DNA of 10,992 nt from Acidimicrobiia bacterium (GTDB taxonomy: Bacteria > Actinomycetota > Acidimicrobiia > IMCC26256 > BP-133). A program made the position numbers and the translations under genes. Within the stretch, counting starts at the first letter, position 1; each line of letters begins with the position of its first letter. The stretch lies in NCBI GenBank assembly GCA_025934385.1, contig JAICYE010000031.1, positions 1 through 10,992 of the forward strand, given 5' to 3'. Below, piece by piece: positions 1,020 to 7,356 of this stretch. The notes under the pieces were generated by a model, which had not been told where the DNA came from, searched no databases, and worked only from the letters and a program-made list of their open reading frames with translations.

Positions 1020-1844
1020 ATGACGGTGCTCGACGAGATCCTGGCCACGAAACGGGCCGAGGTGGCCGGCCTGGCGGGCCGCGCCGCGGTGCTCGAGGCC
1101 GAGGCGGCCGCCGCCGGGCCGTCGGAGCGGGATTTCGCCGCCGCTCTCCGCCGGGCCGACGGGCGGCTGGCGGTGGTCGCCGAGATCAAGCGCCGCTCCC
1201 CGTCCAAGGGGCCGCTGGCCCCCGGTCTCGACGCCGCCGCCACCGCCGCCCACTACGCCGCGGGCGGGGCCGCCGCCCTGTCGGTGCTGACCGACGGGCC
1301 CTACTTCGACGGTTCGCTGGCCGACCTGCGGGCCGCCCGGGCGGCCTGCGCCCTGCCCGTCCTCCGCAAGGACTTCACCGTCGACCCGGTGCAGCTCTAC
1401 GAGGCCCGGGCGGCGGGCGCCGACGCCATCCTGCTGATCGTGGCCGCCCTGCCCGACGACGCCCTGCTGGCCGCGCTGTGTGCGCTGGCCGGCGACCTCG
1501 GCCTGGCCGCCCTGGTCGAGGCCGACGACGAGGCGGGCGTCGAGCGGGCCCTCCGGGCCGGGGCGGGGATCGTCGGCGTCACCAACCGCAACCTGGCCGA
1601 CTTCGGGGAGGACCTGTCGACCGGCGCCCGCCTGGCCGGGCTGATCCCGCCCGACGTGGTGGCCGTGGCCGAGAGCGCCATCCGCTCGGTCGACGACGCC
1701 CGGGCCATGGCCGATGCCGGGTTCTCGGCCGTGCTCGTCGGCGAGCACCTCGTGCGCTCGCCGGACCCGGAAGCGGCGGTGGCGGCCCTGGCCGCCGTGG
1801 AGTACCGAATCGAGGCAAGGGAGGAACGATGCGCTACCTCATGA
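1020..1844 (+). CDS. trpC: Indole-3-glycerol phosphate synthase
   Basis: This cytoplasmic TIM-barrel enzyme closes the indole ring of tryptophan, converting carboxyphenylamino-deoxyribulose phosphate to indole-3-glycerol phosphate. At 274 residues it has the normal length. Family motifs are clear: [11 protein letters not shown] at 54-64 (Glu55, Lys57 and Ser60 match catalytic positions), TDGPYFDGS at 91-99, LRKDF at 115-119 (Lys117) and LVEAD at 165-169 (Glu167), with AVLVGEHL near the C-terminus. Two signature positions differ. The usual GxNxR(D/N)L reads GVTNRNL, so Thr188 takes the place of a conserved active-site Asn, and the usual ESG(I/V) reads ESAI (218-221). The enzyme is probably still active. 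The ATG has no ribosome binding site and may be leaderless. The gene overlaps trpB2 by 16 bases, making it the first gene of the operon. Confidence 0.93.
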
Positions 1845-3145
1845 CCCCCGACAAGACCCCGAGCGCCTGGTTCAACGTGGCCCCCCACCTGCCCGAACCG
1901 CTGTCGCCGCCGATGCACCCCGGCACGGGGCAGCCGGTCGGCCCCGACGACCTCGCCCCGCTGTTCCCCATGGCGCTGATCGGCCAGGAGATGTCGGCCG
2001 ACCCCTGGATCGACATCCCCGGCGAGGTCCTCGACATCCTCAAGCTGTGGCGGCCGACGCCGCTCTGCCGGGCCACCCGGCTGGAAGAGGCCCTCGGCAC
2101 CCCGGCCCGCATCTACTTCAAGGACGAGTCGGTCTCCCCGGCCGGGTCCCACAAACCCAACACCGCCGTGGCCCAGGCGTACTACAACAAGGCGGAGGGG
2201 ATCGGCCGCATCTCGACCGAGACGGGCGCCGGCCAGTGGGGGAGCGCCCTGGCCTTCGCCTGCCAGCAGTTCGGGCTGGAGTGCTTCGTCTACATGGTGG
2301 CGGCGTCGTACCACCAGAAGCCCTACCGCCGGGTGATGATGGAGACGTGGGGCGGCCAGGTCGTGCCGAGCCCGTCCGACCGAACGCAAGCGGGAAAGGC
2401 CGTACTCGCCCGGGACCCGGACACCTCCGGTTCGCTCGGCATCGCCATCAGCGAGGCGGTGGAGGACGCCGCCACCCACCCCGATACCCACTACTCGCTC
2501 GGATCCGTGCTCAACCACGTCCTGCTCCACCAGACGGTCATCGGCCTCGAGGCCCGCCAGCAAATGGAACAGGCCGGAGAAGGCCTGCCCGACGTGGTCA
2601 TCGGCTCCTGCGGCGGCGGCTCCAACCTGGCCGGGCTGGCGCTGCCGTTCGTGCCCGACTGCGCCGGGGCGGTCGGGGCCAAGGGCGGCTCCGGCGGGCC
2701 CCGCCTCGTCGCCGTCGAACCGTCGGCCTGCCCGACGCTGACCGAGGGCCGCTTCGAGTACGACTTCGGCGACGAGGCCGGCATGACGCCGAAGATCCTG
2801 ATGTACACGCTCGGCCACGAGTTCATCCCGCCGCCGATCCACGCCGGCGGGCTGCGCTACCACGGCGACGCCCCGATCATCTGCAACCTGGGGAAGAACG
2901 GGTGGATGGAGGCCGTGGCCTCCCCGCAGGGCAAGGTGTTCGAGGCCGCCGTGCAGTTCGCCCGCACCCAGGGGTCGATCCCCGCTCCCGAGACGTCGCA
3001 CGCCGTCCGGGCGGCGATCGACGAGGCGCTGGCGGCCAAGGAGGCGGGGGAGGAGCGGGTCATCCTGTTCAACTACTCCGGCCACGGCCTGCTCGACCTG
3101 GCCGCCTACGACGCCTACCTCCACGGCCAGCTGGTCGACGTCTAG
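1829..3145 (+). CDS. trpB2: TrpB2-type tryptophan synthase beta-like protein
   Basis: This 438-residue PLP enzyme belongs to the TrpB2 (TrpEb_2) branch. It is longer than canonical TrpB and keeps the branch's N-terminal block, [23 protein letters not shown] (13-36 approx.), and the segment [14 protein letters not shown]. The PLP lysine is Lys109 in GSHKPNT, where canonical TrpB has GSHKINN. The catalytic Glu131 sits in ETGAGQWG, and the phosphate-binding loop GGGSN is at 262-266. The C-terminal block HAGGLRYHG...[12 protein letters not shown] is typical. Family members convert indole and serine to tryptophan, usually without firm TrpA binding, and some use phosphoserine; which applies here cannot be read from sequence. 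The start is the ATG at 1829, with GGGAGGA five bases upstream. The long frame upstream to 980 is only an open reading frame over trpC. Confidence 0.92.

Positions 3146-3842: not shown

Positions 3843-3846
<4 letters not shown>
3172..3846 (+). CDS. trpF: Phosphoribosylanthranilate isomerase
   Basis: This TIM-barrel enzyme performs the Amadori rearrangement of phosphoribosylanthranilate to carboxyphenylamino-deoxyribulose phosphate, the substrate of TrpC. The protein has 224 residues. It opens with KVCGVT, where Cys6 is the general base. QLHGGE follows at 79-84, then LIDS with catalytic Asp127 and FDW, then the phosphate-binding [10 protein letters not shown] (152-161) and [15 protein letters not shown] (173-187). 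The start is the TTG at 3172, placed just after an unusually strong AGGAGGAGGAG at 3158-3168; the conserved domain starts immediately, leaving no alternative. After the usual C-terminal helix there is a tail of about 20 residues rich in Pro, Trp and acidic residues (from GWTPSP to the end). Trp residues in a trp gene are a mild oddity. The stop overlaps the trpB start as GTGA. Confidence 0.93.
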
Positions 3847-5083
<1,237 letters not shown>

Positions 5084-5087
<4 letters not shown>

Positions 5088-5149
5088 AACGGAATTCCTT
5101 TTCGCGCCCGTGGCGAGAACGGATTCCGATCGAAAAGGAATTCCGTTGA
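5084..5149 (+). CDS. 21-codon mini-ORF bridging trpB and trpA (possible coupling/leader peptide)
   Basis: An ATG at 5084-5086 overlaps the trpB stop as ATGA. The frame then runs 21 codons and ends in TGA at 5147-5149, overlapping the trpA start as TTGA. The peptide begins [10 protein letters not shown] and ends IEKEFR. It is strongly basic and carries one Trp codon (TGG, 5111-5113) as codon 10, which lies in the loop of the surrounding hairpin. No good ribosome binding site precedes it, so it would be read by ribosomes that reinitiate after ending trpB. The double overlap is visible in the sequence. That it is translated, or that it senses charged tRNA-Trp, is inference. It could be an accidental frame across a palindromic insertion. 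Confidence 0.45.
5088..5147 (+). promoter_or_regulatory. Perfect 17-bp inverted repeat (hairpin) masking the trpA start
   Basis: AACGGAATTCCTTTTCG (5088-5104) and CGAAAAGGAATTCCGTT (5131-5147) are exact reverse complements separated by 26 bases. The element is markedly AT-richer than its surroundings. Each arm contains the palindrome GGAATTCC, and the loop holds a near copy of the arm start (AACGGATTCCG, from 5119). As RNA, the 3' arm contains the likely trpA ribosome binding site (AAGGAA, 5135-5140) and the first two bases of its TTG start. The hairpin would therefore block trpA unless a ribosome opens it. No U-run follows, so it is not an ordinary Rho-independent terminator. Confidence 0.85.
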
Positions 5150-5952
5150 ACCTCGAGACCCATCTCCGGGCCCGGCGGGAGGAGGGCCGGAAGCTGCTCG
5201 TGCCCTACGTGACCGGCGGGCTGGGCACGGCCTGGCTCGACGTCGTGCGGGCCGTGGCCGACGCCGGTGCCGACGCCATCGAGATCGGGATCCCGTTCTC
5301 CGACCCGGTGATGGACGGGCGGATCATCCAGGAGGCGTCCCGCCGGGCGATCGAGATCGGGGCCACGCCGGCCGGGATCATCGCCGACCTGGCCAAGGTC
5401 GACGTCGGCGTCCCCACCGTGGTGATGACCTACTACAACCCCGTCCAGCACTACGGCCACGAGCGCTTCGCCGCCTCGCTGGCCGGCAGCGGCATCGACG
5501 GCGCCATCGTTCCCGACCTGCCGCTCGACGAGCTGGTCGGGGGGGCCGCCGACGGCTCAGTGGCGGCGGGCTCCTGGGCCGAAGCGGCCGACACCTGCGG
5601 GGTGGAGACGGTGCTGCTGGCCGCCCTCACGACCCCCGACGACCGGCTGGCGGCGATCTGTGCCCGGAGCCGGGGGTTCGTCTACGGCGTTTCGCTGCTC
5701 GGGGTGACGGGGGAGCGGGCCAAGCTGTCGGAGGGGGCGCTGGAGATGGGCCGCCGGCTCAAGGCCGCCACCGAGCGGCCCGTCCTCCTCGGCGTCGGCC
5801 TGTCGACGCCGGAGCAGGCCGTCGAGGCGAGCTCAGGGGCCGACGGCGTGATCGTGGGCAGCGCCCTCGTCCGCCGGCTGCTCGAAGGCGGCGGACCCGA
5901 ACAGGCCGGTGCCCTCGTCGACTCCTTCCGCCAGGCCCTCGACGGCTCGTAG
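5146..5952 (+). CDS. trpA: Tryptophan synthase alpha chain
   Basis: This TIM-barrel subunit splits indole-3-glycerol phosphate into indole and glyceraldehyde 3-phosphate and passes indole to TrpB. The protein has 268 residues, the normal length. The catalytic Glu46 lies in AIEIGIPFSDP and Asp57 in DPVMDG. MTYYNP (94-99), IVPDLPLDE (121-129), GVSLLGVTG (181-189) and GADGVIVGSALV (231-242) follow the family order. I placed the start at the TTG at 5146 because AAGGAA lies five bases upstream and the protein then begins MNLETHLRA, as relatives do. A GTG at 5110 is also in frame, but it lies in the hairpin loop, has no ribosome binding site and would add 12 unconserved residues. Translation is probably coupled to trpB through the hairpin and mini-ORF. 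The stop directly abuts the convergent regulator gene. Confidence 0.93.
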   Translation: MNLETHLRARREEGRKLLVPYVTGGLGTAWLDVVRAVADAGADAIEIGIPFSDPVMDGRIIQEASRRAIEIGATPAGIIADLAKVDVGVPTVVMTYYNPVQHYGHERFAASLAGSGIDGAIVPDLPLDELVGGAADGSVAAGSWAEAADTCGVETVLLAALTTPDDRLAAICARSRGFVYGVSLLGVTGERAKLSEGALEMGRRLKAATERPVLLGVGLSTPEQAVEASSGADGVIVGSALVRRLLEGGGPEQAGALVDSFRQALDGS

Positions 5953-6405
5953 CTAGCCCGGCTCGTCGCTGGCCGGAGGCTCGGGCGCCGGCGTCCCCTT
6001 GGCCTTTGACGGCGCGGTCCTGGGGCCCCGCTTGATGGTGTTGCGGCTCTCGGCCACGTAGCTGCGGTAGACGGCCAAAAGGGCCTCCCGCTGGCCGTCG
6101 GTTAGGTAGGGGTCGGCGGAGATCGCCGCCTCGGTGGCACCGTGGATGCGGCCCTCGTCGTCGTTGTCGCCGACGAGGCCGACCTGGGCCAGCAGCGTCT
6201 CGGTGGAGATGTCGAGGGCTCTGGCGATGGCCTGTATGACGCGGATCGACGGCTCGTGCAGGCCCCGCTCGATCTGGCTGAGATAGGGGTTCGACACCCG
6301 GGCCAGCTCGGCCAGCTCCCGCAGCGACAGCTTGGCCAGCTGCCGCTGGGTCCGGACGAAGCTGCCGAACGCTTCGAGCTGCGTTCTCCAGGGATCCTCG
6401 GCCAC
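5953..6405 (-). CDS. XRE-family helix-turn-helix transcriptional regulator of the PHA/phasin locus
   Basis: This 150-residue cytoplasmic DNA-binding protein has an N-terminal cro/C1-type HTH at about residues 12-67. LSLRELAELARVS forms the first helices of the HTH, NPYLSQIERG (39-48) is the recognition helix, and PSIRVIQAIARAL follows. A second predicted helix with TDGQREALLAVYRSYV (102-117) may serve in dimerisation. The last 25 or so residues are a Pro/Ala/Lys-rich disordered tail. Similar actinobacterial regulators sit beside phasin or HbhA-like genes, which matches this context. The start is the GTG at 6405, with AAAGG upstream; the dehydrogenase stop lies only nine bases away, so they share a transcript. 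Palindromes at the phasin promoter are plausible targets (inference). The stop abuts that of trpA with no gap. Confidence 0.88.
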   Translation of the reverse strand: MAEDPWRTQLEAFGSFVRTQRQLAKLSLRELAELARVSNPYLSQIERGLHEPSIRVIQAIARALDISTETLLAQVGLVGDNDDEGRIHGATEAAISADPYLTDGQREALLAVYRSYVAESRNTIKRGPRTAPSKAKGTPAPEPPASDEPG

Positions 6406-7326: not shown

Positions 7327-7356
7327 CTGCCCGGCGAGAATCATCTCGCCGGGCAG
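7327..7356 (-). other. Perfect 13-bp GC-rich hairpin between phasin and dehydrogenase genes
   Basis: CTGCCCGGCGAGA (7327-7339) and TCTCGCCGGGCAG (7344-7356) pair perfectly around a four-base loop, 57 bases after the phasin stop. No T-run follows on either strand. It is better seen as an mRNA-stabilising or processing hairpin, or a weak terminator, that lets the phasin be expressed more strongly than the dehydrogenase downstream. The rest of the 134-base spacer shows only the dehydrogenase ribosome binding site. Confidence 0.6.

Follow-up and report, generated by a model that had tools for sequence, protein, structure and literature searches.

The window, by which we mean the whole stretch of 10,992 nucleotides analysed here, belongs to an Acidimicrobiia bacterium and carries a trp operon whose genes and junction features are collected in Table 1. 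Alongside trpC, trpF, trpB and trpA the operon encodes a second PALP enzyme, which we take to resemble TrpB2. Counted from its ATG, its gene shares 16 nt with the end of trpC; a start at 1841, where an in-frame ATG lies, would give another ATGA overlap at the trpC stop. The trpF-trpB junction (3843-3846) reads GTGA, the trpB GTG overlapping the trpF stop, and the chain of stop/start overlaps extends upstream in this way. Beyond trpA lies a convergent helix-turn-helix gene on the minus strand (5953-6405), the two stop codons abutting at 5952/5953. Farther downstream, a perfect inverted repeat with 13-bp arms and a 4-nt loop (7327-7356) is flanked by a 3-hydroxyacyl-CoA dehydrogenase gene and a 131-aa ORF, both on the minus strand; the latter is without Pfam match and appears phasin-like by eye.

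Table 1. Genes and sequence features of the window at and around the trpB-trpA junction.
Feature	Position	Strand	Remarks
trpC			PF00218
Second PALP enzyme	1829-3145		Between trpC and trpF, same operon as trpB
trpF			PF00697
trpB	3843..5087	+	GTG start, TGA stop 5085-5087; PF00291, E=1.8e-42
Bridging mini-ORF	5084..5149	+	21 codons; its ATG (5084) formerly started trpA
62-nt insertion	5088..5149 (equivalently 5085-5146)	+	Relative to the direct overlap in relatives
Inverted repeat, 5' arm	5088..5104	.	Perfect, 17 bp
Trp codon	5111..5113	+	Sole one in the mini-ORF; in the hairpin loop
Internal near-repeat of 5' arm	5118..5127	+	Predicted to pair with 5137-5147 once the 5' arm is covered
Inverted repeat, 3' arm	5131..5147	.	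Covers the trpA ribosome binding site and first start bases
Shine-Dalgarno-like AAAAGGA of trpA	5134..5140	+	Supplied by the insert; read from sequence
trpA	5146..5952	+	TTG start within TTGA; PF00290, E=7.2e-66

The bridging mini-ORF and its hairpin

The coordinates confirm an observation of the first-pass annotation, namely that a 21-codon frame joins trpB to trpA by two stop/start overlaps. Upstream, the ATG of the frame (5084-5086) shares bases with the trpB stop in an ATGA; downstream, its TGA stop (5147-5149) lies within the TTGA at 5146-5149, whose TTG is in the trpA frame. Both ends are stop/start overlaps of the -4 or -1 nt type, as found in termination-reinitiation pairs.

The two arms of the inverted repeat enclose a loop of 26 nt. 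When the window was simulated 60 times with a first-order Markov model, no perfect inverted repeat was longer than 14 bp, against the 17 bp of the real one. The hairpin has a fold z-score of -2.82, none of 200 shuffles being equally stable, and GC falls locally to about 52% at the repeat. AAAAGGA, which ends five bases ahead of the TTG, and the first two bases of that TTG are both contained in the 3' arm; the earlier description of a sole Trp codon placed in the loop and of a 3' arm masking the trpA ribosome binding site holds on both points. An alternative GTG start at 5110 shares its second and third bases with the first two of this Trp codon. Across the window there were no Rfam matches at gathering score.

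Insertion into a stop/start overlap

L001 and L002, at about 84% TrpA identity the closest relatives to be found, have trpB and trpA joined by one direct ATGA overlap at the same site: their junctions read CTCGAATGAACCTCGAG and GTCGAATGAAGCTCGAA, that of the window CTCGAATGA-62 nt-ACCTCGAG. Direct GTGA or ATGA overlaps also occupy the corresponding junction in L003, L004 and L006, and a third genome of the family of L001 and L002 gave no TrpA match. Because the two relatives have a single ATGA overlap exactly there, the mini-ORF corresponds to a 62-nt insertion, and alignment of the junctions makes it close to certain that it arose by insertion of a 62-nt palindromic sequence. TGA flanks the insert on both sides (5085-5087 and 5147-5149). 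Since 62 is not a multiple of three, trpA is shifted out of the frame of ATG 5084; the TTG at 5146, composed of one insert base and the TG of the second TGA, restores the trpA frame. The N-termini of TrpA homologues agree with this history. Among 120 listed of 7615 matches, 22 homologues with identities of up to 93% were read, and 21 of them start at the conserved site, with M or V followed by NLE or KLE, which is what an insert-free trpA start predicts; homologue P0112 has an N-terminal extension unlike one from GTG 5110. TrpA conservation in relatives begins at residue position 2. An assembly artefact is conceivable for a single record such as the window; the precision of the insertion site and the flanking pair of TGAs speak against it.

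The insert is known from the window lineage alone, and conservation of this particular mini-ORF has no example. A 60-mer query gave matches of just 14-26 query bases in 7 close genomes (E 0.22-2.9), none in 3 family genomes at E<=0.1, and partial matches in 6 of 58 order genomes, covering 19-26 bases within query positions 14-45, around which the palindrome was not seen by eye. The arm, searched at up to two mismatches in 395 class genomes, yielded 73 matches in 55 of them, never two per contig, and the longest perfect inverted repeat in the surroundings of 34 of the 73 was 10 bp. Viral contigs held no copies of the element, the arm search giving 24 stretches with one arm each; among plasmids, 25 records were returned, none with 80% query coverage. 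A MITE-like mobile element would have terminal inverted repeats, a target duplication and several copies; the insert shows inverted repeats and a TGA on both sides, with no second copy in the genomes and viral contigs searched, and by analogy it is probably mobile. An integron attC-like site was also considered in the light of attC core motifs and rejected: GTTGAAC stands at the 3' end, but the 5' end shows no matching inverse core by eye.

Bridging mini-ORFs at other trpB-trpA junctions

Junctions were collected from TrpA relatives, from the order of genome G001 (51/58 genomes with a match), from the class (317/395), from the families of G331 and G005 (5/6 and 2/2) and from the order of G331 (179/198); the class and G331-order matches were fetched in part, mostly the better-scoring ones. 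The 268 loci processed, one of which was unusable (L317), gave 243 distinct junctions once duplicates were removed. A direct NTGA overlap in the trpA frame is present in 183 of the 243 junctions and a direct 1-nt overlap (TGATG or TAATG) in 12. No overlap exists in 24 junctions, and trpB-trpA coupling is thus not obligatory in the class. Another 24 have an NTGA at the trpB stop whose start is out of the trpA frame, as in the window.

Among these 24 out-of-frame junctions, 17 are relays, that is, they contain a mini-ORF of 3-49 codons ending in an NTGA trpA start: the window (21 codons), L005 (26), L080 (8), L170 (49), L248 (3), L249 (6), L252 (3), L266 (3), L301 (15), L309 (3), L319 (25), L322 (5), L328 (3), L330 (5), L333 (23), L336 (25) and L357 (24). 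Two others, L277 (ATGCCTGA) and L284 (ATGGCTGA), have by eye an 8-nt overlap ending on the trpA ATG, and five (L174, L183, L311, L341 and L358) have no link. Gap shuffling led to an expectation of 5.2 relays against the 17 observed in the 19 usable junctions, with L174, which could not be parsed, and L183, L311, L341 and L358, for which no shuffle had an in-frame trpA start, standing outside the test. A count of 17 was reached in none of 200,000 Monte Carlo draws, the largest being 13. Where the gap exceeds 10 nt (n=18), frames permitting a 4- or 1-nt overlap outnumber the other by 16:2 (P=0.00066), and by 13:2 (P=0.0037) when the group of L319, L336, L322 and L330 is taken as one. On a tree of 226 junctions, built with a fast method and omitting 15 of the 243 that were not relocated and 2 that were too short, none of them relays, at least 14 changes account for the 19 labelled junctions (the 17 relays with L277 and L284). 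The relay count is raised by sampling that was partly steered towards the relatives of a genome with a relay: relays made up 4 of 146 junctions before this follow-up and 9 of 77 in loci L283-L362. The mini-ORF relay layout recurs across related lineages, and does so above shuffle expectation.

The mini-ORFs of L319 and L336 differ by 5 synonymous and 3 nonsynonymous codon changes, and to judge from this comparison the relay peptides appear to be without visible selection. Between these two genomes and the close ones of L322 and L330 the relay is retained and its length varies, from 25 to 5 codons. Elsewhere in the collection a PadR-family regulator gene (PF03551, E=5.4e-15) sits between trpB and trpA (L007:3564-3944), and the 454-nt gap of L310 looks by eye homologous to that gap.

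Origin of the bridging sequences

Three bridges contain inverted repeats longer than those of their own shuffles: 21 bp in L005, 12 bp in L170 and 17 bp in the window, the maxima from 100 shuffles of each insert being 9, 9 and 7 bp. In L080, L301, L319, L333, L336 and L357, relays long enough to test, no inverted repeat exceeded that of their own shuffles. The palindrome of L005 is present in three exact copies in genome G005, all situated 16-25 nt behind NTGA overlaps, at trpB/trpA, purE/purB and pdxS/pdxT; in L108, where the genes are on the minus strand, and in L109 the copy lies at 1501. The three share one reading frame (SRVHSVRNPNAMYS). At trpB/trpA it forms a bridging mini-ORF; at the other two sites it continues in frame into the downstream gene and adds the same peptide to PurB and to PdxT. 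The neighbouring genes were assigned by Pfam (AIRC, Lyase_1/ADSL_C, SOR_SNZ), and PdxT is presumed from a motif. The arms of the L170 insert occur twice in G331 with differing interiors, and the second copy stands behind an AMP-binding gene with a CTGA stop, so outside an NTGA overlap.

Other relays seem to have arisen differently. Those of L252, L266 and L357 look by eye like small tandem duplications of the junction, and the 24-codon mini-ORF of L357, which starts with MSLTGWFQ where TrpA has VSLTERFQ, suggests a tandem duplication of the trpA start. A wider generalization can tentatively be drawn, although we consider it somewhat doubtful: unrelated palindromic families in Acidimicrobiia may specialise in the NTGA overlaps of operons, remaining translationally transparent through their open frame, and together with tandem duplications may produce relays that selection would keep since the trpB/trpA subunit ratio needs coupling. 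The second G331 copy, lying as it does outside any NTGA overlap, makes this generalization less likely. As a counterpoint, tandem duplication of an NTGA could make some relays without selection, an objection that the frame bias alone opposes.

A proposed stop-start relay between trpB and trpA

From the junction sequences the following succession of events may be proposed. A short palindromic element, probably a mobile one, entered the NTGA at which trpB and trpA overlapped and left a TGA on both sides. The old trpA start thereby lost the trpA frame and now opens the 21-codon mini-ORF. The element brings its own Shine-Dalgarno-like sequence and forms, together with the second TGA, the TTG start of trpA; its stem would mask that start against free ribosomes. 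A ribosome ending trpB would reinitiate at ATG 5084, translate onward and melt the stem, terminate at TGA 5147 and then reinitiate at TTG 5146. One-step coupling of trpB and trpA would in this manner become a two-step relay. We regard such a palindromic insertion, with a stop-start relay maintaining translational coupling between the two genes, as the probable reading of the locus.

The spacing between the genes is pertinent. Coupling was nearly abolished at a spacing of about 20-38 nt in reporter work, as given in the accessible part of the source (PMC10666635), and on that account the 58-nt gap should uncouple trpA if no relay existed. A folding prediction puts the opening of the trpA start at 10.8 kcal/mol when no ribosome is present. 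With a ribosome placed at the trpB stop, a hairpin between 5118-5127 and 5137-5147 is still predicted to mask the start (8.8-10.0 kcal/mol; 9.3 and 5.5 in two other fold windows), and a ribosome completing the mini-ORF would sit on the trpA start itself. As purely supportive evidence these predictions would make delivery through the mini-ORF more plausible than a simple melting of the stem by a ribosome at the trpB stop; the opening costs vary with the assumed ribosome footprints and with the fold window. That a ribosome finishing the mini-ORF reinitiates at trpA had been proposed in the first-pass annotation; the excess of relays among the usable junctions fits this proposal, of which the reinitiation step is one that we infer.

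Could the mini-ORF instead be a neutral by-product, a chance and functionless reading of the insert, with trpA expressed through its own Shine-Dalgarno sequence? The double overlap of the window taken by itself is not beyond chance and, given the insertion, was likely to arise anyway: with the gap length, and hence the frame, held fixed and the gap shuffled, it appeared in 58% of those shuffles that had an in-frame trpA start. The mini-ORF is also without codon adaptation, its GC3 being 0.57 against 0.95-0.96 for trpB and trpA, and such a reading would be at ease with both the position of AAAAGGA ahead of the TTG and the junctions that have no overlap at all. It has to contend, however, with a stem predicted to mask that very Shine-Dalgarno sequence and start in the absence of ribosomes, and with the relay excess across lineages (17 of 19 against 5.2), and we judge it unlikely.

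A regulatory variant of the relay, in which a ribosome stalled at the Trp codon when charged tRNA is scarce would hold the stem open and raise trpA expression, was the idea favoured by the first-pass annotation. The single Trp codon does lie in the loop, and a ribosome with its A site there gives the cheapest predicted opening of the trpA start, 3.2 kcal/mol, the lowest of 12 positions in the fold of 5040-5230. This part of the idea stands in that one fold: in two other fold windows, for which a single value was computed, the scan covering 5040-5230 alone, opening with the A site on the Trp codon costs 6.6 and 8.0, and in one of these two it is cheaper with a ribosome at the trpB stop (5.5). 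The remainder fared less well. There is one codon and no tandem, trpB already has five Trp codons upstream, and Trp is present in just 3 of the 17 relay mini-ORFs; with all relays pooled, Trp makes up 5 of 247 codons, a rate at which a frame of 21 codons would include one or more Trp with a probability of 0.35. A consensus scan of 4950-5300 found no terminator-like partner. Both close relatives compared, L001 and L002, lack the insert and its frame and have the direct overlap in its place, an outcome that the first-pass annotation itself had named as refuting its idea. A Trp-sensing role of the mini-ORF is not supported, and we hold it to be very improbable.

That trpA begins at GTG 5110 within the insert as an N-terminally extended protein, leaving TTG 5146 unused, is scarcely credible: the trpA frame is open that far upstream, but no Shine-Dalgarno-like sequence was seen by eye ahead of this codon and none of the 22 TrpA homologues read, among the 120 listed of 7615, has such an extension.

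Comparison with known systems

The stop-start relay, if correct, would make the trpB-trpA junction a natural evolutionary test of translational coupling, out-of-frame spacers usually holding a bridging mini-ORF. It would also suggest how small palindromic elements settle within operons yet leave downstream genes unsilenced, and it advises caution, as tiny operon-internal ORFs may be couplers and not peptides. In the literature on coupling, short ORFs and repeats, consulted as titles and abstracts and mostly outside subscription papers, bridging trpB-trpA mini-ORFs were not reported.

In trp leader-peptide attenuation a short ORF with Trp codons, usually in tandem, is associated with alternative hairpins. 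The window shares the short Trp-containing ORF and the alternative hairpins; it differs in that this ORF is operon-internal, contains one Trp codon, is accompanied by no terminator-like site in the region scanned and is not conserved. Rickettsia palindromic elements are small repeats carrying open frames. The same is said of the enterobacterial RU elements in the accessible part of the source (PMC2759123). The elements described here are comparable to both, by description, as small open-frame repeats, and the G005 copies extend PurB and PdxT; the hosts are other ones, and the copies found here stand behind NTGA overlaps.

Termination-reinitiation coupling of trpB and trpA through a stop-start overlap goes back to Das and Yanofsky 1989, as cited in the accessible portion of PMC10666635. 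The gene pair is the same, and the window adds a 21-codon cistron with two overlaps. Bicistronic designs and short upstream ORF boosters deliver ribosomes and clear structure, according to what is accessible of two sources (PMC12548453, PMC13255528). They share with the window a short ORF directly ahead of the next gene; they are synthetic and placed before a single target, whereas the ORF of the window is natural, operon-internal and fed by an upstream overlap.

The closest known system is that of the MIRUs (mycobacterial interspersed repetitive units), the likeness being one of description. MIRUs have NTGA (DTGA) as their target site. A 2025 review (PMC12548453), in its accessible part and with reference to Supply et al. 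1997, presents them as small repeats of mycobacteria, apparently mobile, which land at start codons and contain an ORF whose 4-nt spacing from the gene downstream couples the two. Similarly, the insert of the window occupies an NTGA in which the stop of one gene and the start of the next overlapped, as the ATGA of L001 and L002 indicates, and its ORF (5084-5149) overlaps the downstream trpA by 4 nt, with an additional 4-nt overlap upstream. MIRUs occur in dispersed copies, whereas none of the window element was found in relatives, the analogous G005 palindrome having three. The window element further differs from MIRUs in being a palindrome, in having a stem that would mask the downstream start and in its host, which is related to Acidimicrobiia MAGs; the MIRU-type phenomenon would in this way be extended to another actinobacterial class and to palindromes.
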